Part shown: positions 23,323-38,554 of the stretch, piece by piece | How positions within the stretch are numbered: the first letter of the stretch is position 1 | Layout of the letters: each line of letters starts with the position of its first letter | Assembly (NCBI GenBank): GCA_024696005.1 | Contig: JAILHF010000067.1 | Span: forward strand, 1-38,554 | Length of the DNA stretch: 38,554 nucleotides | From: Lachnospiraceae bacterium | GTDB taxonomy: Bacteria; Bacillota; Clostridia; Lachnospirales; Lachnospiraceae | Reading direction: 5' to 3' | Translations under genes and position numbers: made by a program | Notes under the pieces: model-generated | What the model was told of the DNA's origin: nothing | Database searches by the model: none | What the model saw: only the letters and a program-made list of their open reading frames with translations

Positions 23323-25146
23323 TTACCGAACCTTTGTCCAGACCTTTGTAGCCAGGTCATAGGAATACACATTTTCCAAAGCGTTATCGTCTATCCATTT
23401 TTGCGCATAGAGAGGATAATCATCGCTGCACACATCCCAGACATACCATCCCGGAGGAGCATACCAGGCGCCGGCATTGATGGACGATACGCCGGTCGTC
23501 TCCGCGACCTCCCATGCATCCAGCTGATAATAAAACTGCAGCTGACCGCTCTTTGCCGAATCCGTAACGTAGAAAGATTCCGCATCCTCGGGTGCTGCCG
23601 CGATCCCGTCCAGTACCGCCTTTCGTTCTCCATGGTTCAGGAAAGCAAGCAAGCCCGTTTTGTTCACCGAGGAGAATACCAGCAGACCCAATAATACAAA
23701 CGCGATGATCCCGTTTCTGTTTTTTCTTGCTGCCGATCCGGCTAAAAAACGGTCCATGAAAAAGGCGGATATGATACTCATCGGAAAACACAGCCACAGA
23801 TAAAAACGCGATACAGAACTCAATGCTCGGGCAGGAGGCAGCAGTTCATAGACCAGAGCCCAGGCAGACAGTTCTTTCCCGTCCCAGCGTATGACCAGGA
23901 AAAGACAGATCACTACGCAAAGAAGTGTACAGCGGGGAATGATCTGCTCCACCTTCATTTTCTTTCCGTGTAGCGGGATCCATTTGATGAGCGCCAGGAT
24001 AAACACTGCCAGCAAAACCACAGAGAATCCGACCGTCAGTTCCAGATCCCTTCCACGTTTGCCGATATCGATGAGCTTCATAAACCAGCCCATCATCAGA
24101 TTGTTTTCACCCACGTTGATCAGATCCACCGGATCGGGCAGGAAAACACCCGAATAGGAATAGCTTCTTCCTTCTTTCATGACCGGGATGTAGATGCTCA
24201 GGAACGGAATAAAAAGGATGACCATAAAAATGACATAGCCCAGAAGATCCCATTTCATCGTCATCACCCAGTTTTTGATCTCCTTGAAAGGCTTCTGACC
24301 GGCCCGCGCCGAAACGATCAGATAAAGGATGATGAATATCAGGGAAAAGATACCGGTAAAGCAGGCGATATACCAGGAAGTATAGGTCAGGAGTACAAAA
24401 AGAAAGATTGTAGCGCAGGCATACACATTCCTTTTCAGGCGATTATGAAAATTCTTTACAAAAGCAACAAAACAGATCAGGATCGGCGGCAGCATCCCTA
24501 CGGCAAAAAGCTGGGGATGGTTGGAAAGCGATACCAGCGCACAGCAGTGGGAAAACGCAACAGCGCCAAAGGTGGACCATACCGGACTTATGCGAAAGCT
24601 TTTCCGCAGAAGAAAGTACATCCCGTACATTCCGATCAGATGCATGGAAAACACCGCATATTTGAATGCAAGATAGATATCCGCACCAAACAGCCGAAAT
24701 ACCGAGTGTAACAGTCCAAAACCAAGATGCATGTCGGAATAGCCTATCGCGATCCTGATCGGATAGAATACCGGTATGATACTGAATTTCTCTTTGCCCG
24801 TGAAAAACTTCCACCAATGCTCCGTACTGAGTGCGGTAAATCTGCCATCCCCAAGATCTCCGAGCATGGCATCCGTAAAGATGACATTACGCCAATAAAA
24901 CAACTCCAGAGCCAAAAGAATGACCAATGGAAGAAGCTCCAAAGGATTGAAGCTTTTTTTCTCCGCAGACGCATCCGCACCCGCTTTCTGGGAGTCCTTT
25001 GCGGATCCCGCGGTTTTCGTCTCTTTAACGGAAGCAGGTTTTTCCGATTCCGCTTTCTTCGCGGTATCCTTCTCTGCCTGTTCGGCGTTCACTTTGGAAT
25101 TCGTTTTGGCTTCCGCAGCATTTCCCGATTTCTTCTTTTTACTCAT
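23323..25146 (-). CDS. Large polytopic membrane protein, GT-C/YfhO-like
   Basis: A 607-residue membrane protein at the end of the polysaccharide operon. Residues 1-65 are a cytoplasmic Lys/Ala/Glu-rich tail. About eleven to twelve membrane segments follow. The first outside loop has FTDAMLGDLGDGRFTALS, an acidic loop of the sort that binds lipid-phosphosugars in GT-C enzymes and YfhO-like proteins. A C-terminal extracytoplasmic domain of roughly 110 residues is rich in Tyr/Trp. It overlaps the acyltransferase stop by four bases. A glycosyltransferase role is inferred from topology; polymerase is an alternative since no Wzy is otherwise visible. Confidence 0.7.
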   Translation of the reverse strand: MSKKKKSGNAAEAKTNSKVNAEQAEKDTAKKAESEKPASVKETKTAGSAKDSQKAGADASAEKKSFNPLELLPLVILLALELFYWRNVIFTDAMLGDLGDGRFTALSTEHWWKFFTGKEKFSIIPVFYPIRIAIGYSDMHLGFGLLHSVFRLFGADIYLAFKYAVFSMHLIGMYGMYFLLRKSFRISPVWSTFGAVAFSHCCALVSLSNHPQLFAVGMLPPILICFVAFVKNFHNRLKRNVYACATIFLFVLLTYTSWYIACFTGIFSLIFIILYLIVSARAGQKPFKEIKNWVMTMKWDLLGYVIFMVILFIPFLSIYIPVMKEGRSYSYSGVFLPDPVDLINVGENNLMMGWFMKLIDIGKRGRDLELTVGFSVVLLAVFILALIKWIPLHGKKMKVEQIIPRCTLLCVVICLFLVIRWDGKELSAWALVYELLPPARALSSVSRFYLWLCFPMSIISAFFMDRFLAGSAARKNRNGIIAFVLLGLLVFSSVNKTGLLAFLNHGERKAVLDGIAAAPEDAESFYVTDSAKSGQLQFYYQLDAWEVAETTGVSSINAGAWYAPPGWYVWDVCSDDYPLYAQKWIDDNALENVYSYDLATKVWTKVR

Positions 25147-26267
25147 TTTTCATTTCCTTTACTGTTTATTCTTTTCCGGATCCGGGCCGGCAGCCCCATG
25201 ATCCTCCGCAATAACTCTGCCGCCAAAACCACAAGCATAAAATACAGTACACATAATAATATCATATACAGAGGCGCATCGCCACAATATTTCCGCACGG
25301 CCTCGTATGCCTTGGCAGCCGAACCGATCACAAGCACGTGGACCAGATATATGGTAAAGCTGTTTCGGACAAGCGGATCGAACATGCGCTTCATCCTGTC
25401 CGACACACGGAAGCGGCCTCCGAAGCATTTATATTCATAAGCCAGAACGATCGCCGAAACACAGATGACAAACAAGAGTCCGCCTCCCCAGATGTTGACG
25501 GTTTTCCTGTGTCCTTCGTGGTACACCAGCGGCACAGCGATAAGCGGAAGCACCGCCATCAGAATGCATCCCACGCGTTCCGCACGACTGAGACTTTCCT
25601 TCTTTTTCAGAATCAGAGCCACGATCTCTCCCGCTGCCACACCCATGATAAAGATATCCATCCGCAGGCTGTATTTCCAGAACGCCAGTCCGCACGCCGC
25701 ATACAGGAGGTACCGGAGAATGAATTTGTCCTTAAACAGCATCAGGATAAGGGAAAGAAAAAGACGGCAGAGGATCACGTTGTTGATGTACCATAACTGA
25801 TACGAGTAGTAAGGGTACGAATCCTCCTGCCATCCGCCGATCACGATCCTGCGAAAATCCCGAAACAGCTCCGTCAGGCTGAATCCTTCCGCATTCCACA
25901 GCTCCCGCTTCAGAAACGCGATGAGCGCGCCGATTGTCACGATCAGCAGGGAGGGAAGGATCAGATACAGTTCCTTCTGCAACAGTTTCCGAAACGTGAT
26001 CTGCTTCCCGTTCCGATAGAGATCGTAAGACAGAAGAAAGCCGCTTAATGCAAAAAAGAAAAGCACCGAGATATCACCGGCGATCGAATACACGACTATG
26101 GTTTTTCCGAGAGTCGTCTTGTTGATCGCATCGCACAGACGAATGCCGTTTTCGGACTGCAGCGCAATGGAAAAGAAATGCCCGTTATAGACCCCGATAC
26201 AGGCGATCAGTCTGAGGAGCTCGATGACATAGTATTTTCTGTTTTTTCCCGGATTCTTATCCTGCAA
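25143..26267 (-). CDS. Acyltransferase 3 family membrane protein
   Basis: Predicted O-acyltransferase transferring acetyl or another short acyl group onto a surface sugar. The 374-residue protein has about ten membrane segments. The family's opening motif is ELLRLIACIGVYNGHFF, where the His is the presumed catalytic residue. FFFALSGFLLSYDL follows, the second conserved block. NSFTIYLVHVLVI near the end is the typical C-terminal motif. Placement between GT14 and the large membrane protein suggests it decorates the polysaccharide built by the cluster. Confidence 0.88.
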   Translation of the reverse strand: MQDKNPGKNRKYYVIELLRLIACIGVYNGHFFSIALQSENGIRLCDAINKTTLGKTIVVYSIAGDISVLFFFALSGFLLSYDLYRNGKQITFRKLLQKELYLILPSLLIVTIGALIAFLKRELWNAEGFSLTELFRDFRRIVIGGWQEDSYPYYSYQLWYINNVILCRLFLSLILMLFKDKFILRYLLYAACGLAFWKYSLRMDIFIMGVAAGEIVALILKKKESLSRAERVGCILMAVLPLIAVPLVYHEGHRKTVNIWGGGLLFVICVSAIVLAYEYKCFGGRFRVSDRMKRMFDPLVRNSFTIYLVHVLVIGSAAKAYEAVRKYCGDAPLYMILLCVLYFMLVVLAAELLRRIMGLPARIRKRINSKGNEK

Positions 26268-26292: not shown

Positions 26293-27165
26293 TCAGCGCT
26301 CCGTCCCTTCCTTCTCCCGAAGATAAGCACTGATCTTCTCTATGATCTCTGCATCAATGTCCACATCGAACTTCCGCGCGAAATGCATGCCGGAGGAGAT
26401 CAGCCGGTCAAAATCCTGAATGCAGAACACATAGGGATATCTTCCCTCCACAACGGTATTCCAGTCGATATAGCGCATGAGCGGGCCGCAGCTGTCCTGA
26501 AGCTTCAGATTGACGATCACTCTCTGCAGGGCTGATTCATCGGGAAGCAGATCGTTGGAGGTATTCTTATAGATCCAATCCCTGTTCTTCAAGAGCTTAA
26601 GCGCCAGATCATGCCGGATGTCAAACCAGGCCGCGCCGCCCGCGTAGGTCCTGGTTTTCTTTTTCACAAAACGGATGCACCTGCGGAAGAAATTGTTGAT
26701 CTTCTGCGCTACCGTCTTCGGGTCCTGACTGAACTTGTAATAGTCGATCCGGGCCCTTGCGTGGGTTTCGATCCAATCCTCATCACAGAGCTCAACATGA
26801 TTGATGCCCTGGTCTTCCTCATCATAAAAACGATTGATCTCACGGGCCGTCATCAAAGGCATGTCCTGACCGCTGATCAGATGATAACAGGAATAGGGCC
26901 CGTTCTTTACAGCTGCTTCCAGCATGATCAGCGTGCTCTCCACGATCGTAATGTGTCCCCAAAGGACCGATACCCTCCTCACAAAAAATATGCCGGCCTT
27001 TTTAACAACGGCTTTTAACGCCTCCATGTCCACTTCCGTTGATTTCAGATCAACGTGGATATACAGATCATTCTCTTCTATGTCTAACAGGCTAAGCAGA
27101 TTCTCGATCTGTTTCTGATTCTTGTGTACCGCGATCAGGTACGCGTGTCGTTTCGTGTTATCCAT
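26293..27165 (-). CDS. GT14 (core-2 beta-1,6-GlcNAc-transferase-like) glycosyltransferase
   Basis: A 290-residue soluble, inverting glycosyltransferase of the family that includes mammalian core-2/I-branching enzymes and bacterial capsule transferases. The N-terminus KRHAYLIAVHKNQKQIENLLSLL and YIHVDLKS match the bacterial group. VLWGHITIVESTLIMLEAA and YHLISGQDMPLM are the central conserved blocks. The DE pair in LLPDESALQRV matches the catalytic glutamate position. Mammalian relatives build branched host O-glycans, but bacterial members use varied sugars, so GlcNAc is an inference. A Lys/Arg-rich stretch near residue 165 could touch membrane lipid. Confidence 0.88.
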   Translation of the reverse strand: MDNTKRHAYLIAVHKNQKQIENLLSLLDIEENDLYIHVDLKSTEVDMEALKAVVKKAGIFFVRRVSVLWGHITIVESTLIMLEAAVKNGPYSCYHLISGQDMPLMTAREINRFYDEEDQGINHVELCDEDWIETHARARIDYYKFSQDPKTVAQKINNFFRRCIRFVKKKTRTYAGGAAWFDIRHDLALKLLKNRDWIYKNTSNDLLPDESALQRVIVNLKLQDSCGPLMRYIDWNTVVEGRYPYVFCIQDFDRLISSGMHFARKFDVDIDAEIIEKISAYLREKEGTER

Positions 27166-29385: not shown

Positions 29386-30390
29386 CTATTTCCTCTCACT
29401 CTCAGAAGACGGCAAGCGGAGTTCTTCTATATCCGATATGACATATACAGGTCTTTTCCGGGACGCTTCCAGTGTCCGCCACAGATATTCTGCTATGATC
29501 CCCAGAGAAATATTGGTCATTCCGAATCCAAGCGATAATATGCAAGCTATTGTTGAATAACCCGCCTGAACATCCGGATTCACAATCTTATTAATTATCG
29601 TCATCATCCCGATAACAATACCAACAAGAAATATGACCATTCCTATGATACTCACCATTCTGATCGGAACAAACGAAAATGCCACAAACGAATCAATGAA
29701 AGCCTTTATCTTTTTGGAGAACGTCCATTTGGAACTCCCGGCTGATCGCGCATTATAATCAAGTGAAATATTGGCATATTTAAATCCCATATTCATAATC
29801 TGCAATACAACCTGTGAATTCGCTTCCACATTTTCATTCAACAGATCCCTGATCTTTTTTCCAAACACAACTGTTGCCGTGCCTTCCGAAGAATAGGTAC
29901 TGATGGCATATTTCTTCATCAAATGAGAATAGATGCGCGAAAAAAGTCTTTCCATTTTCGAGATCTTAATGGTTTTTTTCGAAAAATATACCACTTCAAC
30001 ATTGCCGGAAGATATCTTTTCATAAGCAAGCGGCAATATCTCCAACGGTTCCTGCAAATCGGCCCCAAACCACGTGCAGATATCATATGATGCGTTCTTG
30101 ATTCCCGCCCGAACAGCCGAATGAAATCCGAAATTTCTTGATAATACCAAAAGTTTAGCGGATGCAACATTCTGAAACTCGTATCCCCTGACAATTTCAA
30201 CTGAGCCATCACATGAACCGTCATCAATGAATACAAGTTCAACCGGAAAATTCAACGTTCGGACGTAATCGTCCATTGTTTTGCAAAAGATCGGCAACGC
30301 TTCCTCTTCATTTAGAAAAGGGACAATGACCGTAATACCATCTTTACCCTTCAATTCTTTTTCCTCTTCAAAAGATCCTTCCTGTACCAT
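29386..30390 (-). CDS. Polyprenyl-phosphate glycosyltransferase, ArnC/GtrB-like GT2
   Basis: Transfers a sugar from a nucleotide donor to undecaprenyl phosphate on the cytoplasmic face. The 334-residue protein has a charged N-terminus, the GT2 opening ITVIVPFLNEEEALP, VFIDDGSCDGS and the Asp-rich GADLQEP (metal-binding D.D equivalent). NFGFHSAVRAGIKNA is typical of the DPM/GtrB branch. Two C-terminal membrane helices (about 230-255 and 275-300) match ArnC and GtrB topology. The donor may be the 4-amino sugar made by the upstream DegT and dehydratase genes. Confidence 0.9.
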   Translation of the reverse strand: MVQEGSFEEEKELKGKDGITVIVPFLNEEEALPIFCKTMDDYVRTLNFPVELVFIDDGSCDGSVEIVRGYEFQNVASAKLLVLSRNFGFHSAVRAGIKNASYDICTWFGADLQEPLEILPLAYEKISSGNVEVVYFSKKTIKISKMERLFSRIYSHLMKKYAISTYSSEGTATVVFGKKIRDLLNENVEANSQVVLQIMNMGFKYANISLDYNARSAGSSKWTFSKKIKAFIDSFVAFSFVPIRMVSIIGMVIFLVGIVIGMMTIINKIVNPDVQAGYSTIACILSLGFGMTNISLGIIAEYLWRTLEASRKRPVYVISDIEELRLPSSESERK

Positions 30391-31475: not shown

Positions 31476-32149
31476 CTCTGCTTCCTCCTAAATACGTCCA
31501 TTATCCTTTGATCCAAACCACTATAGTAATCAGAGTTCAATACCTCTTCCAATATTTTAACCCTGATCAGTTCGGGTTCCCCTATTTCTTCGTCAAACAA
31601 AACATAACTCGGAGCCAGCCCTGTGTCTCTTGGCATCCCGATCGATCCCACATTTACAAAGATGGTTTGTTCCGTCTTTTTGATGTATGGCCTATGCGTA
31701 TGTCCCATAAAAACATAATCATATCTCTCTTCTTTCCATGCATAATTCACATTGTTCTCATAGAGATAACCACACACGTGATCATACGGTGCTCCATGAA
31801 TACAGAGTGCTTTTTTATGCCTCAACTCGATTTCCACCTCTTCCGGTAACTGTCTCAAAATCTCCCCTGTATAAACATCGATCGTTTTACTTTGTTCTTT
31901 TAATCCGTATAATACATCCTTTTCATCATCTATTCTGATCTCACCATTTAGCATCGCTTCATGATTACCTTTTAAGATAACGGCATTTCTTTTCTTCAAT
32001 TCTTCCAGAATATATAACCCGTCCCTCATATATCCGAATGCATCTCCCAGAAAAATGATGCGTTCCGGATCAAGGTTGTCGATTTCTTTCATTACAATGT
32101 CAAAAAAGATCCTGTTTCCATGAGCATCAGATATAATAACATATTTCAT
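31472..32149 (-). CDS. Calcineurin-like metallophosphoesterase
   Basis: A 225-residue di-metal phosphoesterase with all classical motifs in order: DAHGNR (DxH), FLGDAFGY (GD), KGNHEAM (GNHE), CIHGAP (His) and GHTHRPY (GHxH). It resembles YfcE/MJ0936 phosphodiesterases. Location between an ATP-grasp gene and an epimerase, overlapping both by four bases, ties it to polysaccharide synthesis. It might hydrolyse a sugar phosphate or phosphodiester intermediate; the substrate is not recognisable. Confidence 0.88.
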   Translation of the reverse strand: MKYVIISDAHGNRIFFDIVMKEIDNLDPERIIFLGDAFGYMRDGLYILEELKKRNAVILKGNHEAMLNGEIRIDDEKDVLYGLKEQSKTIDVYTGEILRQLPEEVEIELRHKKALCIHGAPYDHVCGYLYENNVNYAWKEERYDYVFMGHTHRPYIKKTEQTIFVNVGSIGMPRDTGLAPSYVLFDEEIGEPELIRVKILEEVLNSDYYSGLDQRIMDVFRRKQS

Positions 32150-33042
32150 TTTCCGTTGATATCCTTATTCTGTCGCATGAAATCCTGTATGGTCCTTTCA
32201 ATGGGGTATTCCGGTTTATACCCGATATCTATTTTTATCCTGCTAAGATCAACATCCCATGTCTGGGAATCCGCCGGATCATCTTTGCCGGAAAATGTGA
32301 TCCTTGTTTTACCGTTTCCCGCAATCTCCATACATTTTTCCGCAAGCTCATAATTTGATACAGACTTTTCCGAGCCTATATTATACACCCCTACAGCGTT
32401 AGGGGATACTATAAAACGTTCTGTCGCTTTTGCTATATCCCTGACATCTATATAGTTCTGCCTTCTTGTCCCCCGCCCGTTTAACACGATATCCTCTCCG
32501 TTTAGAACGCGATTACAAAATATGGAAAAGATCGTAGGTTTTTTCATATCAGGAGCGATTGGCGAAGGAATCCGGATCGAAACAACTCTGACACCGTCTT
32601 TTTCCAACTGCTTTACCATATACTCCTGCATTGCTTTCGTTGCATGATACATAGTCGGTGGATCAACAAAGTTCTGCTCTCTGACAGCTTCTCTTCCCGG
32701 TATCCCAATGATCGGAAGGCTGGAAAACAGGATAAAAATCCTACAGTCTGTTTCTTTGCATATTTTCATGAGCTTTTGTGTTCCGACAACATTCACATAT
32801 AACAATTCCGGATCAAGATCATCAACACTGATATGCGATGCTATGTGAACGATGGCCTCCCACCTGTTTTTCAAAAGCACATCAGGAATATCATCATGGC
32901 CCATATCCCATCTTACATATCCGGATATATCTGCCGTGGCTCGGTCTTTTGTCCCTACACCTGTAACATCGAAACGCCCTGCCAGATGTTCTGCGACCCA
33001 CTTCCCTATAAAGCCATTCGCTCCCGTAACCAAAACATTCAT
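32146..33042 (-). CDS. NAD-dependent sugar epimerase/dehydratase (extended SDR)
   Basis: About 298 residues from ATG 33042 (GGAG seven bases upstream; a second ATG at 33048 is too close to it). The Rossmann motif is VLVTGANGFIGKWV, followed by LFSSLPIIG and the catalytic YHATKAMQEY (Tyr-x-x-x-Lys). The C-terminal half has NIGSEKSVSNYELAEK. It is most like UDP-glucose 4-epimerase or other 4-keto sugar-modifying enzymes. It overlaps the phosphoesterase start by four bases. Exact sugar unknown. Confidence 0.85.
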   Translation of the reverse strand: MNVLVTGANGFIGKWVAEHLAGRFDVTGVGTKDRATADISGYVRWDMGHDDIPDVLLKNRWEAIVHIASHISVDDLDPELLYVNVVGTQKLMKICKETDCRIFILFSSLPIIGIPGREAVREQNFVDPPTMYHATKAMQEYMVKQLEKDGVRVVSIRIPSPIAPDMKKPTIFSIFCNRVLNGEDIVLNGRGTRRQNYIDVRDIAKATERFIVSPNAVGVYNIGSEKSVSNYELAEKCMEIAGNGKTRITFSGKDDPADSQTWDVDLSRIKIDIGYKPEYPIERTIQDFMRQNKDINGK

Positions 33043-33091
33043 TTGCATGCTCCAACGATACTATCGATACAACCACAGATACATAGCAAAG

Positions 33092-33136: not shown

Positions 33137-34099
33137 TCAGGAAAAATCTTTATACCAATCCAACGTAATCCTAATCCCTTCTTCAAATTCAACTTCCGGT
33201 TCAAAACCCAGAAGTTCCCTTGCTTTCTTAGCATCGGCACAAAGCTTTCTCACATCGCTGGTCCTTGCCGGCCGGTGTTCCCAATCTCCTGAATATCCGT
33301 AATAATCACAGATCCCCTGCAAAAGACGATTTATGGAAATATCTTTTCCCGAACCCAGATTGATGATCTCGCCTCGGGAGCTTTCTTTTTCATATGCCAG
33401 AATCAAAGCTCTGACAGTATCACCAACAAAAATGAAATCCCTTGTCTGTTCACCGTCACCTTCTACAATGGGCATTGCTCCTTCCTTGATCCTTCTTGCA
33501 GTTGCAGGTATGATGGCTGCAAGAGATCCTTCGGCATTCTGCCTGGGCCCGTAATTATTGAATGGCCGAACGATCGCAATATCCAATCCGAGCACCTTAT
33601 AAAAGCTGTGTACCATCAGGTCAGCCGCCGCTTTTCCGGCTGCATAAGGAGTCGTGGGATCTGTCGGATGATTCTCATCCATCGGGGAATACTGCGCTGT
33701 CCCATATGCCTCCGATGATGATGTATGGATCAGTGTTTTATACGCCCCTGTTTTTAACAGTTCCAGCAATGTATTGGCTATTTCCACATTCACCATATAT
33801 GCATCAAAAGGATTGAAAAAAGAGTAATTCAGCGCTATCGTTGCCATATTGAAAACTACTTCCACTTTTTCTTTTTCAATAATGGATTGCATGACGCCGA
33901 AATGTCTCACATCATCCCTGTATAACACAAAGTTTTCATGCTCCATGGCCTTGCAGATGTTTTCCGTTTTCCCCAGAAAAAAGTTGTCAACGCAGATTAC
34001 CTTTTCTGCACCCTTTTCCAAAAGAGCATCACAAAGATGACTACCGATAAATCCCGCCCCTCCGGTTACCAGAACTCTTTTCCCTTTTATAGAAGGCAT
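33137..34099 (-). CDS. LegB-like nucleotide-sugar 4,6-dehydratase (extended SDR)
   Basis: ATG 34099 with AGGATG upstream gives 320 residues; the frame opens at a TTG 34117 that is less likely. It has VLVTGGAGFIGSHLCDAL, HTSSSEAYGTAQYSPMDE, YAAGKAAADLM (catalytic Tyr-x-x-x-Lys) and RPFNNYGPRQN. SSSEAYGTAQY and NNYGPRQ resemble LegB-type UDP-GlcNAc 4,6-dehydratases more than GalE, where SSS-x-VYG lacks Glu. With the adjacent aminotransferase it would make a 4-amino-4,6-dideoxy sugar nucleotide. GDP-mannose dehydratase is an alternative. Confidence 0.82.
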   Translation of the reverse strand: MPSIKGKRVLVTGGAGFIGSHLCDALLEKGAEKVICVDNFFLGKTENICKAMEHENFVLYRDDVRHFGVMQSIIEKEKVEVVFNMATIALNYSFFNPFDAYMVNVEIANTLLELLKTGAYKTLIHTSSSEAYGTAQYSPMDENHPTDPTTPYAAGKAAADLMVHSFYKVLGLDIAIVRPFNNYGPRQNAEGSLAAIIPATARRIKEGAMPIVEGDGEQTRDFIFVGDTVRALILAYEKESSRGEIINLGSGKDISINRLLQGICDYYGYSGDWEHRPARTSDVRKLCADAKKARELLGFEPEVEFEEGIRITLDWYKDFS

Positions 34100-34113
34100 T
34101 TCATCACATCCTT

Positions 34114-35337
34114 TCAATCTTCGTCTATGGTCGCTCTGATGATATCGATGATCTCTTCCTGTTCTTCTTCTTTCAAGCCCACATATAAAGGCAGAGTGAT
34201 CGACAGACGGTCACATGCATAAGCCTGCGGATAATCCTCCGGCTTGAAACCGAAGCGGTCTCTGTAATAACCAAGCAAATGAACGGCATGCGTTCCCTGT
34301 CTTGTGGCGATCCCTTTATCCTCCAGCTTTTGCAGCAGAATATTTCTGTATTCTCCTCCGGCTTCGACTGTATCGATCTGAAGCTTCTTAAGATCCAGCA
34401 TGCAGACATAAGACTGGTATGTATGATAAAAACCTTCCGGCTCCACAGGCGGGATAAACTCCGGCAACCTTTCTGCAATCAGTCGATTATATACTGCTGC
34501 CTCTTTTCTCTTTTCTTCTATGATATGGTCCAGCTTTTTGATCTGCGCGATCCCCATGGCTCCCTGGATATCAGTCATTCGGTAATTAAATCCGGCTTCC
34601 GGGAATTCAGGAAGAAGAAAACCTTTTCCTTTATCCCTGGCATCGGCTGAAACAGTGCTTCCATGCGTCCGGAGTTCCCTCATTCTTTTGGCTGCAGAGG
34701 GATCATCTGTCAGGACCATGCCTCCTTCACCGGTTGTTATGGACTTTCTCGGATGAAAGCTGATACAAGAAAGATTGCCGAAAGCGCCCTGATGTTTATC
34801 TTTATACATGGCTCCCAGCGCGCATGCCGCGTCTTCCACTACCTTTAAGCCGTATTCATCAGCAATTTCATTAATCTTGGCAATCTCACAACACAAACCG
34901 AATTCGTGTACCGGAACGATCCCCCACAGGATGTTTCCGCTTTCAACATTGATCAGCTTTCCGTTTCCGGATCTGTACTTTGTTTCAATGATCTGACGGA
35001 GCTTTTCTACATCTATATTAAATGTTTCCTGATGGATATCACACAATACCGGTGTAGCCCCTGTCATGACGATGGAGTTCTCCGTTGCAACAAATGTAAA
35101 GGCAGGTGCAATCGCATCCATGCCAGCTTTCAAGCCGGAAACGCTAAGCGCCAGATGAAGAGCCGTCGTGCAGGAAGTAGTTGCTACACCTTCCGCAACA
35201 CCTTCATGGGCTGCTATCTGTTTTTCAAACTCGGCAACCTTCGGTCCCTGAGCCACCCAACCCGAATCCAAGGCAGTTCCGATCATCTGAAGTTCTTCTT
35301 CAGAGAAAAATGGTTTTGTTACCGGATATCTGATCAT
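34114..35337 (-). CDS. DegT/ArnB-type PLP sugar aminotransferase
   Basis: Transfers an amino group to a keto nucleotide sugar. The 407-residue PLP enzyme has [12 protein letters not shown] (PLP phosphate loop), [13 protein letters not shown] (Asp pairing with the pyridine nitrogen) and [14 protein letters not shown] with the Schiff-base Lys. The N-terminus [29 protein letters not shown] is typical of the ArnB/LegC/PseC group. It sits next to the 4,6-dehydratase, giving a 4-amino sugar pathway. Overlaps the acyltransferase stop by four bases. Confidence 0.92.
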
Positions 35338-35882
35338 TGTTCCAATCCTTTCCCATCATATTCCTGTCCGCATTCTTCGCAGACATACTTTTCGTTAAGC
35401 TTAAACCCACATTTACACACCCAGCCAATCTGACGAGCAGGATTCCCAACTACCAGGGCATGTGGCTTCACATCTTTTGTCACAACACTTCCAGCGCCAA
35501 CCGTAGCATATTCTCCTATGGTCACGCCGCATCTTATGACCGCGCCGGCTCCGATCGACGCTCCTTTTTTCACAAGGGTTTCCGTAATCTTCCAATTCGA
35601 ATTAAATGCCCTGGGGTACATATCATTGGAAAATGTCATCGATGGTCCGAGAAAGACATCATCCTCAATGGTAACACCATGATAAATATTCACATTATTC
35701 TGAACCTTAACGTGATTTCCTATCTGTACATGCTCATCAACATATACGTTCTTGCTGATGATGCAGCCCTCTCCCAATCTGGCATCATTCCGGATCTGTG
35801 CCTGATTCCAGATCTTGCAGCCCTCTCCTATCGAGGCGCTGTCGCTCACTTCTGCTGTAGGATGAATAAATATCTCACTCAT
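35334..35882 (-). CDS. Left-handed beta-helix N-acyltransferase with zinc-ribbon tail
   Basis: ATG 35882 gives 182 residues; the first 20 residues of the longer frame overlap the previous gene. Hexapeptide repeats run from [14 protein letters not shown] to [18 protein letters not shown], a WbpD/WlbB-like pattern, with [11 protein letters not shown] as the active-site loop. The tail (about 145-182) carries [20 protein letters not shown], two Cys pairs, likely a zinc ribbon. It would acetylate the amino group installed by the upstream aminotransferase. Confidence 0.9.
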
Positions 35883-35883
35883 T

Positions 35884-37083
35884 TTACTCTTTTCCCTCGA
35901 AAAAACTGTTTGCCGTATCAATGACATATGTGATCTGTTCATCCGTCATCTCAGGAAAAATGGGAAGACAGACAGTTTGCTTTGAAATACTCTCGGCAAC
36001 CGGCAAACTTCCACCCGATATCCTGCTGTTTTTCGCATTAAACGCCTTCTGCATATGCAACGGCACCGGATAGAATGTCCCATTCCCCACTTCATGTTCT
36101 GAAAGATACGAACAAAGCTCAGCCTTATGCTCCGTGCAGACAACAAACTGATGCCAGCAAGGCTTTACATCTGCAGAATAAACCGGCCTCCGCAGTTTTT
36201 TGCTCAAGCCGTCAAAATACCTGGCTGCAATCGCAGCTCTCCTTGCATTGTACTCATCCAGATGCCGAAGCTTTGCGGAAAGAACTGCAGCCTGTATCGC
36301 ATCAAGTCTGGAATTGTATCCGATAACATAATTAAAGTATTTGTACGGATTATATAATTCCGTCTCCTTTTCCTCACTTTTCAGCTCTTCCCTTATGCCT
36401 TCCTGGAGCTCCATCGTCATAGCACCGGCTTTTCCCGCACCATGCTCTTTATAGGCCTTCAATGCCGTAAGCAGATCAGGATCATTGGTCGTTACCATCC
36501 CGCCGTCTCCCGCACCTCCGAGATTCTTTGTCGGATAGAAAGAGAAGCATCCCACATCACCAATTGTTCCTGCTTTGTGTCCTTTATATTCACTTCCTAT
36601 GGCCTGTGCATCGTCTTCGATCACCCTGAGCCCGTGATCTTTTGCGATACGCAATATGCTGTCCATGTCGCAGGGTGCTCCAAAGATATGAACCGGCAGT
36701 ATCGCCTTTGTTTTATCACTGATCGCTTCCTCGATCTTTCCGGGATCGATATTGTAATCTTCTTCTCTGATATCAACGAACACCGGTATTGCTCCCACCG
36801 AAGCAATAGCCTCCGCGGTTGCAAAAAATGAAAACGGTGTGGTGATCACCTCATCACCTGCTTTGATGTTACAGGCCTTCAGTCCCAGAACCAGTGCATC
36901 GGTACCATTGGAGCATCCCGATACATATCCCGCCCCCAGATAGTCAGCCATTTCCTTTTCAAAGGATGAAACATATTCCCCGCCGATAAAGCAACATTTT
37001 TCCAGTATGTCGGAAACAGCTGCTTCCAACTCAGGCTTAATCTGATGATATTGTGTTTGCAGATTTAAAAACGGAACTTTCAT
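35884..37083 (-). CDS. DegT/WlbE-type PLP sugar aminotransferase
   Basis: Installs an amino group on a 3-keto sugar nucleotide in the WbpE/GnnB manner. ATG 37083 with GGAGAATAAG upstream gives 399 residues. It opens [20 protein letters not shown], a form typical of WbpE/GnnB/Fdt[14 protein letters not shown] is the PLP loop, [14 protein letters not shown] the Asp region and [16 protein letters not shown] the catalytic Lys. Unlike the neighbour at 34114 it has a short insertion rich in Glu/Lys near residue 225. It lies between the Gfo/Idh dehydrogenase and the acyltransferase. Confidence 0.92.
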
Positions 37084-37087
37084 TTTC

Positions 37088-38059
37088 TTATTCTCCTTTT
37101 TTTGCTCTGTTGGAAACCTCTTCACAGATCCTAATAGCCCTTACACCCACTTCGCCACTTGCCTCTATAGGCATTCCATTTGCCACAGCCTCATAAAAGG
37201 CAATCAGTTCAGCTCTCAAAGGTTCTTCGATCGGCACAAACACCTTTTGCACTACACTATCCTGTTTATAGGAGTTATCTTTCGCAATGTCAATGATCAT
37301 ATTCGTGCTCTTATAGATCTCGAGCTTTTTGGAAAGAAGATCCGCATGAACGCAGCTGTCTTTGGTATGCACGGTTATGCTTCTTTCCTTGTTCTGAGAC
37401 ACCCTGCTGGCATTGACGATCGCGTGTGCCTTTCCGGCAAAGTCCATCAGGCATGTGGCAAAATCGGTCTGTCCGGACAAGACCGACACCCCTCTTCCGT
37501 GGAGAGATGTCACTTCCCTCCCCTCCATCAGAGCACAGACCAGATCAACGTCATGTATCATCAGATCCTCCACCACACTTGTATCTGTAATCCTGCCGCT
37601 TCCGCTAAAGGGGCTGTATCTGCAGGTTTCGATAAAAAAAGCTTCTTCCGGCCTTATCAGTTTTTTCAATTCCCGGAACACCGGATTGAAACGCTCAATA
37701 TGACCGACTGCCAGTTTTAGTTTCTTTTCCTTAAACGCATCCACAATGACCTGTGCGTCTTCAGATGTCAATGCCAAAGGTTTTTCAATTAGGGCATGCA
37801 CACCGAATTCCGCCACCTGAAGCGCAATATCTTTGTGTAGCGAAGATGGAACGGCTATAACAACTGCATCAACATCCCCCAGCAATTCCTCCATGGAAAC
37901 ATACGCTTTCGTTCCGTATTTTGCGGCAACATCCTTCGCCTGTTCTGTATTGGCATCATAGATGCCGACGAGCTCGAACCTTTTTTCTTCAGCCAGATTT
38001 CGTACATGGTTTTTTCCCATGTGCCCCGTTCCGATCACTCCCATTCTGAGATTATTCAT
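37088..38059 (-). CDS. Gfo/Idh/MocA nucleotide-sugar 3-dehydrogenase
   Basis: NAD-dependent oxidation of the sugar 3-hydroxyl, in the WbpB/GnnA manner. The 323-residue protein has the Rossmann motif GVIGTGHMGKNHVRN, EKPLALT (catalytic Lys in the EKP motif) and VGHIERFNPVF. SVVEDLMIHDVDLVCAL carries the conserved HD..D segment. The next two genes encode aminotransferase and acetyltransferase, which defines the pathway. No UDP-GlcNAc 6-dehydrogenase is in the window, so uronic acid versus neutral product is undecided. Confidence 0.9.
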   Translation of the reverse strand: MNNLRMGVIGTGHMGKNHVRNLAEEKRFELVGIYDANTEQAKDVAAKYGTKAYVSMEELLGDVDAVVIAVPSSLHKDIALQVAEFGVHALIEKPLALTSEDAQVIVDAFKEKKLKLAVGHIERFNPVFRELKKLIRPEEAFFIETCRYSPFSGSGRITDTSVVEDLMIHDVDLVCALMEGREVTSLHGRGVSVLSGQTDFATCLMDFAGKAHAIVNASRVSQNKERSITVHTKDSCVHADLLSKKLEIYKSTNMIIDIAKDNSYKQDSVVQKVFVPIEEPLRAELIAFYEAVANGMPIEASGEVGVRAIRICEEVSNRAKKGE

Positions 38060-38152: not shown

Positions 38153-38554
38153 TTACGTCCTCAAAAACTCATGTCCGCCCTTTTTCCGTTTGTCCATCAC
38201 TGTGATCTTCTCCTTAAAAGGAAGATCCCAATCCTCGGGATACAGATAGGCCGGGCTCAGTATGCGATAATACTTTTCATCAAGATCATTCATGTAGCGG
38301 TTCAGCTGGCTTTCATCGTGCCACAACGCGATGATATCGTTTCTCAGATCCTCTTCGATCCGTTCCGCAAGGCAACGTATCATCTTCAGATAATCTTCCG
38401 TTCTCCCCCCGTTAAAGCCTCCGGCGAAATAGTATTTCCCTTCCCCTTTTTTAATATACGCTGTACAACCCGGATTGTTATCGTAAGTGAATTCAGCGGG
38501 TGAAGAAGCAAAATAGCCGGGATGCATGGTTACAAACAGACCTTCTTCCCCTTC
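38153..38554 (-). CDS. Glycosyltransferase family 6 (ABO blood-group-type), C-terminal part
   Basis: The 5' part lies beyond the right edge. The 133 residues seen match mammalian GT6 closely in order. TMHPGYFASS mirrors TLHPGFYGSS of ABO. FTYDNNPGCTAYIKKGEG mirrors FTYERRPQSQAYIPKDEG. YYFAGGFNGG mirrors YYLGGFFGG. LWHDESQLNRYM mirrors VWHDESHLNKYL, containing the catalytic Glu of the HDE triad. RILSPAYLY mirrors KVLSPEYLW. GT6 enzymes are retaining alpha-1,3-Gal/GalNAc transferases. The Gly at the ABO-268 position suggests UDP-GalNAc. The metal-binding DxD or NxN region is outside the window. Confidence 0.9.
   Translation of the reverse strand, partial: EGEEGLFVTMHPGYFASSPAEFTYDNNPGCTAYIKKGEGKYYFAGGFNGGRTEDYLKMIRCLAERIEEDLRNDIIALWHDESQLNRYMNDLDEKYYRILSPAYLYPEDWDLPFKEKITVMDKRKKGGHEFLRT

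Follow-up and report, generated by a model that had tools for sequence, protein, structure and literature searches.

A family-6 glycosyltransferase related to BoGT6a, and its probable fucosyltransferase partner, in a Lachnospiraceae polysaccharide locus

Which glycosyltransferase is encoded by the gene that runs off the right edge of this Lachnospiraceae contig, and which sugar branch might it add to a surface polysaccharide? The stretch analysed here (the window) is the entire contig C13, 38,554 bases long, from a draft assembly that totals 3.75 Mb, with 74 contigs, a completeness of 99.94% and a contamination of 2.4. Since the window is a complete contig, the gene was cut by the assembly and not by the choice of window. 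What survives on this contig is a reading frame on the minus strand (38554-38153), open from the contig edge to a TAA stop, whose product is the last 133 residues of a family-6 glycosyltransferase (GT6). Its features are as follows.

38153..38554, minus strand: C-terminal part of the GT6 gene, 133 codons and stop, open at the contig end (Pfam, PDB, NCBIfam, Foldseek)
38510..38524, minus strand: HPGYF motif, whose His lines up with ABO His233 (alignment to ABO and BoGT6a)
38417..38425, minus strand: Ala-Gly-Gly, at human ABO 266-268 and BoGT6a 155-157, involved in donor-sugar selection (alignment; PMC6351642)
38309..38323, minus strand: WHDES, whose Glu is the catalytic-site Glu (BoGT6a Glu192; alignment)
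38189..38191, minus strand: Lys equivalent to BoGT6a Lys231 (invariant in alignments)
38159..38179, minus strand: GGHEFLR, the GGH-x-x-LR C-terminal segment (column comparison)

Several searches agreed on the family. The fragment matched Pfam PF03414 (Glyco_transf_6) at 89.9 bits against a cut-off of 25 bits (E 1.7e-25, profile positions 189-297 of 313), a match that places this C-terminal part in CAZy family GT6. The NCBIfam model NF041524 ('family 6 glucosyltransferase') gave E 1.4e-39 and 135.9 bits, below its whole-protein cut-off of 250, as half a protein would be expected to score. In a sequence search of the PDB, the top matches were three BoGT6a sequences (8.2e-37 to 2.2e-36), followed by human ABO transferases from 6.7e-23. 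The Pfam, PDB and NCBIfam scores rule out a chance motif match.

Modelled with AlphaFold2 (mean pLDDT 80.7, with the final 20-odd residues low), the fragment retrieved BoGT6a chains at Foldseek ranks 1-16 and then human GTA, GTB and their mutants, with TM-scores by query length of 0.64-0.70 among the best 50 structure matches listed. For the C-terminal half, the model predicts the GT-A fold common to BoGT6a and ABO. Both the catalytic Glu (ABO 303, BoGT6a 192), which lies in WHDES, and the Lys corresponding to BoGT6a Lys231 were conserved in all 33 rows compared, and the donor-site Gly-Gly expected of a GT6 is also present. Lys231 of BoGT6a touches the UDP diphosphate (PMC3961637). The first-pass annotation, made from the letters alone, had named HPGYF, FTY, GGF-x-GG, WHDES and LSP-x-YL as an ABO-like series and proposed a GT6 enzyme; all five motifs are found in the frame in the order it gave, as HPGYF, FTY, GGFNGG, WHDES and LSPAYLY, and profile search, PDB match and predicted fold agree on the family, with BoGT6a and then human ABO as the best matches.

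We looked for the missing half by searching the genome's own contigs, using the aligned GT6 N-termini of 12 relatives as the query. A single place matched (E 8.2e-18), on contig C34 (3,735 bases), at whose right end an ATG followed by 48 codons runs off the contig (3591-3734); the start codon that the first pass had hoped to find by extending the window thus probably lies on C34 and not on C13. Against PF03414 alone this N-terminal part scored weakly (14.5 bits, below the cut-off), and the whole-genome Pfam search missed it, which indicates that this method misses short fragments. Neither the Pfam search nor the N-termini search of the contigs found a second GT6 in the genome. The middle of the gene was not found among the assembly's contigs, and the ends of C34 and C13 do not overlap.

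Compared with 31 relatives, the gap between the two parts corresponds to 56-66 residues (median 62), giving a whole protein of about 243 residues, like BoGT6a (246). Both parts are free of stops, and their orientation and locus type agree. We infer that they belong to one gene. A truncated pseudogene was rejected, as the break is a contig end and an N-terminal part lies elsewhere in the assembly, although the middle is unassembled. It is very improbable that the two ends derive from separate GT6 genes or from two strains, or that an interruption has inactivated the gene: the lack of overlap, the 74-contig draft and the differing affinities of the parts (Gemmiger sequences come closest to the N-terminal part and, narrowly, Chitinophagaceae sequences to the C-terminal part) would fit such a case, but exactly one N-terminal and one C-terminal part occur in a genome rated 99.94% complete, and the gap size, orientation, locus type and open frames all match a single gene. 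The first pass had also held that a protein lacking the donor-binding half would count against its proposal; no such result was obtained, as a 48-residue N-terminal part is present on C34, though the stretch between the parts is unassembled. The DXD/NXN site and several donor contacts fall in that stretch. Metal-independent bacterial GT6 enzymes of the BoGT6a type carry NXN where others have DXD. Of the 31 relatives, 28 have NAN or NSN at this metal site, while NGD, NSD or NAD is found in the other three (L017 7678-8574 and L029 1067-2182, both Akkermansia, and L032 1280-2092 from genome G307), mixed forms that are intermediate between bacterial NXN and vertebrate DXD.

The fragment does contain the residues that bear most directly on the donor sugar. 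Its Ala-Gly-Gly at ABO positions 266-268 is identical to the triplet of BoGT6a. In PMC6351642, human A transferase was given Ala-Gly-Gly in three experiments: A-positive cells amounted to 100, 140.6 and 95% of control, the B signal was zero, and there was some Forssman activity. In BoGT6a, the backbone N of Gly157 (ABO 268) contacts GalNAc O3 (PMC3961637). Because the human enzyme with this triplet has A activity but none for B, and because BoGT6a shares it, we expect UDP-GalNAc to be the donor, a prediction made from the triplet. The first pass had reached GalNAc from Ala266 and Gly268; the triplet supports that call, but its stress on 268 does not fit a review according to which residue 266 sets the donor and residue 268 itself does not (PMC4202792). 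Besides AGG, relatives carry SGG, MGG, QGC, TGA, IGA, CGG and QGA. This variation, and the location of other donor contacts within the unassembled gap, leave some room for a GT6 that transfers galactose to form a B-like or other alpha-Gal branch; given the BoGT6a triplet and the zero B signal of the human enzyme carrying it (PMC6351642), we consider galactose transfer improbable.

We then asked what the locus would offer as an acceptor. The 141 bases at the left end of C34 repeat exactly those at the right end of C36 (29,845 bases), as is seen between neighbouring assembler contigs, so we take the two to be adjacent. Across this junction, C36 29016-29845 and C34 1-1183 (L042 14116-14945 and L035 1-1183) join into an open reading frame of 623 residues whose N-terminal domain is GT11 and whose C-terminal domain is GT2. 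The GT11 domain scored 117.8 bits with Pfam (cut-off 23.9), and its HVRRGDY fits the alpha-1,2-fucosyltransferase motif. Since no PDB chain matched this domain by sequence, the fucosyl linkage is assigned by family. Other long GT11 open frames that may be alike occur at L029 4490-6421 and L054 154-2031 (644 and 626 codons).

The gene order is GT11-GT2, GT4, GT2, GT6, with two genes separating the fusion from GT6. Ten proteins further upstream on C36 were scanned with Pfam; they include a sugar-phosphate transferase (PF02397), two glycosyltransferases, a VanZ-WecG/TagA fusion, an ABC-2 permease and an ABC ATPase with a Wzt_C domain, and one of the ten had no Pfam match. The fusion, at L042 4855-6147, unites VanZ-like and WecG/TagA glycosyltransferase domains in one protein. 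Downstream of GT6, the window holds the following genes, the first being the first sugar-nucleotide gene after GT6.

37088..38059, minus strand: Gfo/Idh/MocA oxidoreductase, nearest UDP-GlcNAc 3-dehydrogenase (below cut-off; Pfam, NCBIfam)
35884..37125, minus strand: DegT/DnrJ-type sugar aminotransferase, nearest PseC (below cut-off; NCBIfam)
35334..35942, minus strand: hexapeptide-repeat acetyltransferase, NeuD/PglB-like (below NCBIfam cut-off; Pfam, NCBIfam)
34114..35337, minus strand: second DegT/DnrJ aminotransferase, PseC/LegC-like (below NCBIfam cut-off; Pfam, NCBIfam)
33137..34117, minus strand: NAD-dependent dehydratase/epimerase, nearest LegB (below NCBIfam cut-off; Pfam, NCBIfam)
32146..33048, minus strand: NAD-dependent epimerase/dehydratase (Pfam, NCBIfam)
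29386..30390, minus strand: GT2 glycosyltransferase in the same gene run (Pfam)
26293..27165, minus strand: core-2/I-branching-type glycosyltransferase (PF02485; Pfam)
25143..26267, minus strand: membrane acyltransferase (PF01757) at the far end of the polysaccharide region (Pfam)

The sugar-nucleotide genes, each of which scored under the cut-off of its nearest NCBIfam model, may supply a diacetamido-uronic acid and an amino or legionaminic-type sugar. With glycosyltransferase, sugar-nucleotide and ABC transporter genes around GT6, the polysaccharide locus proposed by the first pass is borne out. G+C content is 0.563 in the first 23 kb of the window and 0.41-0.46 in the window's part of the locus; since it is 0.482 in C34 and 0.538 in the last 14,945 bases of C36, the fall across the locus is not uniform. 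Genes for GDP-fucose lie outside C13, C34 and C36: gmd on C25 (474 bits, cut-off 415) and fcl on C20 (486 bits, just below its cut-off of 500, covering positions 2-306 of 308). Adjoining gmd is an epimerase-family gene that might make GDP-rhamnose instead. In terms of gene presence, the genome holds the set needed for an H-type acceptor, namely a member of the alpha-1,2-fucosyltransferase family and the GDP-fucose genes.

BoGT6a adds GalNAc to 2'-fucosyllactose (PMC3961637). An acceptor of this type calls for an alpha-1,2-fucosyltransferase, and a GT11 gene stands in the same gene run. To see how general this pairing is, we scanned the loci of 27 GT6 relatives with a GT11 model built here from 12 seeds, many of them from the very loci then scanned; of 15 GT11 candidates, three (L048, L051 and L052) failed the motif filter and were excluded from model building. 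GT11 lay within 10 kb of GT6 in 20 of the 27 loci, 15 of those 20 being Gemmiger-like. The seven loci without it were L010, L019, Akkermansia L017 and four from Psychrobacter; L010 and L019 had less than 1 kb of upstream DNA covered, yet are counted as misses. With the Pfam GT11 model, 12 of 14 whole genomes had GT11, close to GT6 in 11 of the 12 (a count that takes in the window's own genome through the C36/C34 join); the exception among the 12 genomes with both was Akkermansia genome G437. By our own arithmetic (1-4 GT11 genes, genomes of 2-7 Mb), chance would place GT11 within 10 kb in about 0.3-3% of cases per genome.

The arrangement varies: GT11 is adjacent upstream of GT6 in L027, L028, G334 and G307, about 2-3 kb upstream in Gemmiger-like loci, downstream (adjacent or near) in two Chitinophagaceae, and 2.3 kb away on the opposite strand in Akkermansia L029. 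We treat this linkage as support and not as proof, because it comes mostly from one genus and because polysaccharide loci gather glycosyltransferases; part of it may reflect glycosyltransferase-rich loci that hold many families.

A true GT6 might instead act on an acceptor other than H-type fucosylated galactose, making a linear alpha-Gal or Forssman-like structure, in which case the glycan would not be ABO-like and GT11 would serve another branch of the same chain. The family gives some reason to consider this, as it takes in alpha3GT, iGb3 and Forssman synthases with other acceptors (PMC3961637), and the human A transferase with Ala-Gly-Gly showed some Forssman activity (PMC6351642). Four of the 27 loci, all Psychrobacter, have no GT11 nearby, and GT11 was absent from the one Psychrobacter genome searched. 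At our locus, GT4 and GT2 genes stand between GT11-GT2 and GT6, so the two enzymes may act on different residues. Set against these points are the closeness of GT11 and GT6 in several distinct arrangements (adjacent upstream, downstream, and about 2-3 kb upstream) and the fucosylated acceptor of BoGT6a, the nearest solved relative (PMC3961637). On balance we regard a different acceptor as rather unlikely, though deserving more weight than galactose transfer.

The reading that we favour is that GT6, with GT11 as its probable H-type partner, makes a blood-group-A-like branch, and we think it somewhat probable as a whole. The whole GT6, of about 243 residues, would be a retaining alpha-1,3-GalNAc transferase of the BoGT6a kind, acting while the surface polysaccharide is assembled. 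The GT11-GT2 fusion would first transfer alpha-1,2-fucose from GDP-fucose to galactose, creating an H-type acceptor; GT6 would then add GalNAc from UDP-GalNAc to give GalNAc-alpha-1,3-(Fuc-alpha-1,2)-Gal, and the chain would be exported by the ABC transporter with a Wzt-like domain from the same run. Donor, acceptor, linkage, export and surface display are all deduced from the genes. The A-antigen-like epitope suggested by the first pass gains new support from the GT11 in the same gene run, but display on the cell is deduced in the same way.

Where did this gene come from? Judged by gene content, its host may be Gram-positive: the window encodes an RsgI-like anti-sigma factor and a cell-wall hydrolase, and C36 the VanZ-WecG/TagA fusion and an ABC ATPase nearest TagH (below cut-off), a set that fits a member of the Clostridia. 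A 16S search gave no match for this genome, though it also missed 5 of its 14 control genomes; the 334 genera sampled in the host's family would fit Lachnospiraceae. We compared the GT6 genes in three alignments (A1, A2 and A3, with 12, 20 and 16 of the 27 relatives). In one locus, L034 (G181), our own model recovered no GT6, and the column table and trees do not include it; it has a weak GT6-like match below cut-off (C5 3391-3537) with a TAG inside, perhaps a decayed copy.

A tree of the C-terminal half did not place the window gene firmly (85/92, not starred). With the N-terminal part added, a starred clade (99/97) united it with BoGT6a, two Chitinophagaceae, two Akkermansia and four Psychrobacter sequences, while the narrower grouping with Bacteroidota rows alone reached 87/74 and was not starred. 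A single clade of the window gene, the Gemmiger-like rows and two Lachnospiraceae rows was rejected (AU p 0.0035), with the caveats that this grouping was named after seeing the tree and that the tree has long branches. Also rejected was a clade with the remaining GT6 carriers of its own family (G334, G307 and G295; AU p 0.002), where the long branches are a caveat too. Taken alone, the N-terminal part was nearest to Gemmiger (72% over 46 residues). The GGH-x-x-LR end is common to BoGT6a, the four Psychrobacter, the two Akkermansia and a Chitinophagaceae MAG (L004), is altered in Chitinophaga SYP-B3965, and is absent from the Gemmiger-like and Lachnospiraceae GT6 rows. As the window GT6 groups with Gram-negative GT6s, horizontal transfer is suggested, and our best reading of these comparisons, held moderately, is acquisition from a Gram-negative BoGT6a-like source.

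The distribution of GT6 is sparse around the window's host, being found in one of 35 genomes of its genus. Among 397 genomes sampled from its family there were 5 carriers, 4 of which scored over the cut-off, and among 391 sampled from its class there were 2, with the host's own genome counted each time. In the genus Gemmiger (Gemmiger formicilis, the genome of L007; also L005), by contrast, 29 of 35 genomes carry it. The first-pass view that GT6 is rare in Firmicutes therefore fails for Gemmiger, though GT6 is scarce in the other groups sampled; since most genomes of one gut Clostridia genus carry GT6, the family is not confined to Gram-negatives. Its presence in Gemmiger is already in print, GT6 being listed among the enzymes found there (PMC8549361, 2021); in a narrow literature search we found no link from Gemmiger GT6 to ABO-type antigens. 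Nine of the 29 GT6-carrying genomes had two GT6 matches, and the donor triplet divides the 17 aligned Gemmiger-like rows into an SGG and an AGG group. GT6 relatives also occur in 71 phage records (for example MT838506.1 and MT836157.1), of which 64 are named Synechococcus or Prochlorococcus; among the matches listed, two 'Bacteriophage sp.' records come from human faecal samples, the better one at 48.8% identity.

These observations allow a wider proposal, which we advance tentatively and with somewhat less than even confidence: that true ABO-type antigens are made by Gram-positive gut Clostridia through GT11-GT6 pairs of their own, with GT6 carried by most Gemmiger and acquired separately elsewhere, here from a Gram-negative BoGT6a-like lineage. 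Histo-blood-group antigens have been reported on some such bacteria, including Clostridium clostridioforme, in passages of PMC11125826 that do not name the genes. If the proposal is true, GT11-GT6 pairs would be a genetic source of this histo-blood-group-like material, and their presence would predict which Gram-positive gut bacteria display ABO-like sugars; the interest of the locus lies in this pairing as a marker. Carriers would be possible inducers of anti-A antibodies, and both a bacterial origin of natural anti-A antibodies and a role for commensals as decoys for viruses that bind ABO-like sugars would become testable strain by strain.

Among known systems, the closest is the A-antigen synthase BoGT6a of Bacteroides ovatus (PDB 4ayj, 4cj8), which resembles the window GT6 in family, fold, Ala-Gly-Gly triplet, WHDES, lid Lys and GGH-x-x-LR end, with 50% identity over the C-terminal half. 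It differs in that activity is known only for BoGT6a, in the apparently Gram-positive host of the window gene, and in its NXN, since the corresponding site of the window gene falls within the unassembled stretch. The Gemmiger GT6 genes likewise belong to polysaccharide gene runs, where GT11 precedes them by about 2-3 kb, but they form a separate clade (AU p 0.0035), lack GGH-x-x-LR and carry SGG or AGG according to group, the SGG group having Gln at the ABO-233 position where the window GT6 has His. Helicobacter mustelae BgtA and E. coli O86 WbnI are bacterial GT6 or GTA-like enzymes that make A and B determinants from H-type acceptors (PMC4202792); their hosts are Gram-negative. Human GTA and GTB resemble the window GT6 in the motifs and in the fold of their catalytic C-terminal half (ABO sequences match from 6.7e-23), but are membrane-anchored and metal-dependent (PMC3961637), and carry LGG or MGA (PMC6351642) where the window GT6 has AGG.
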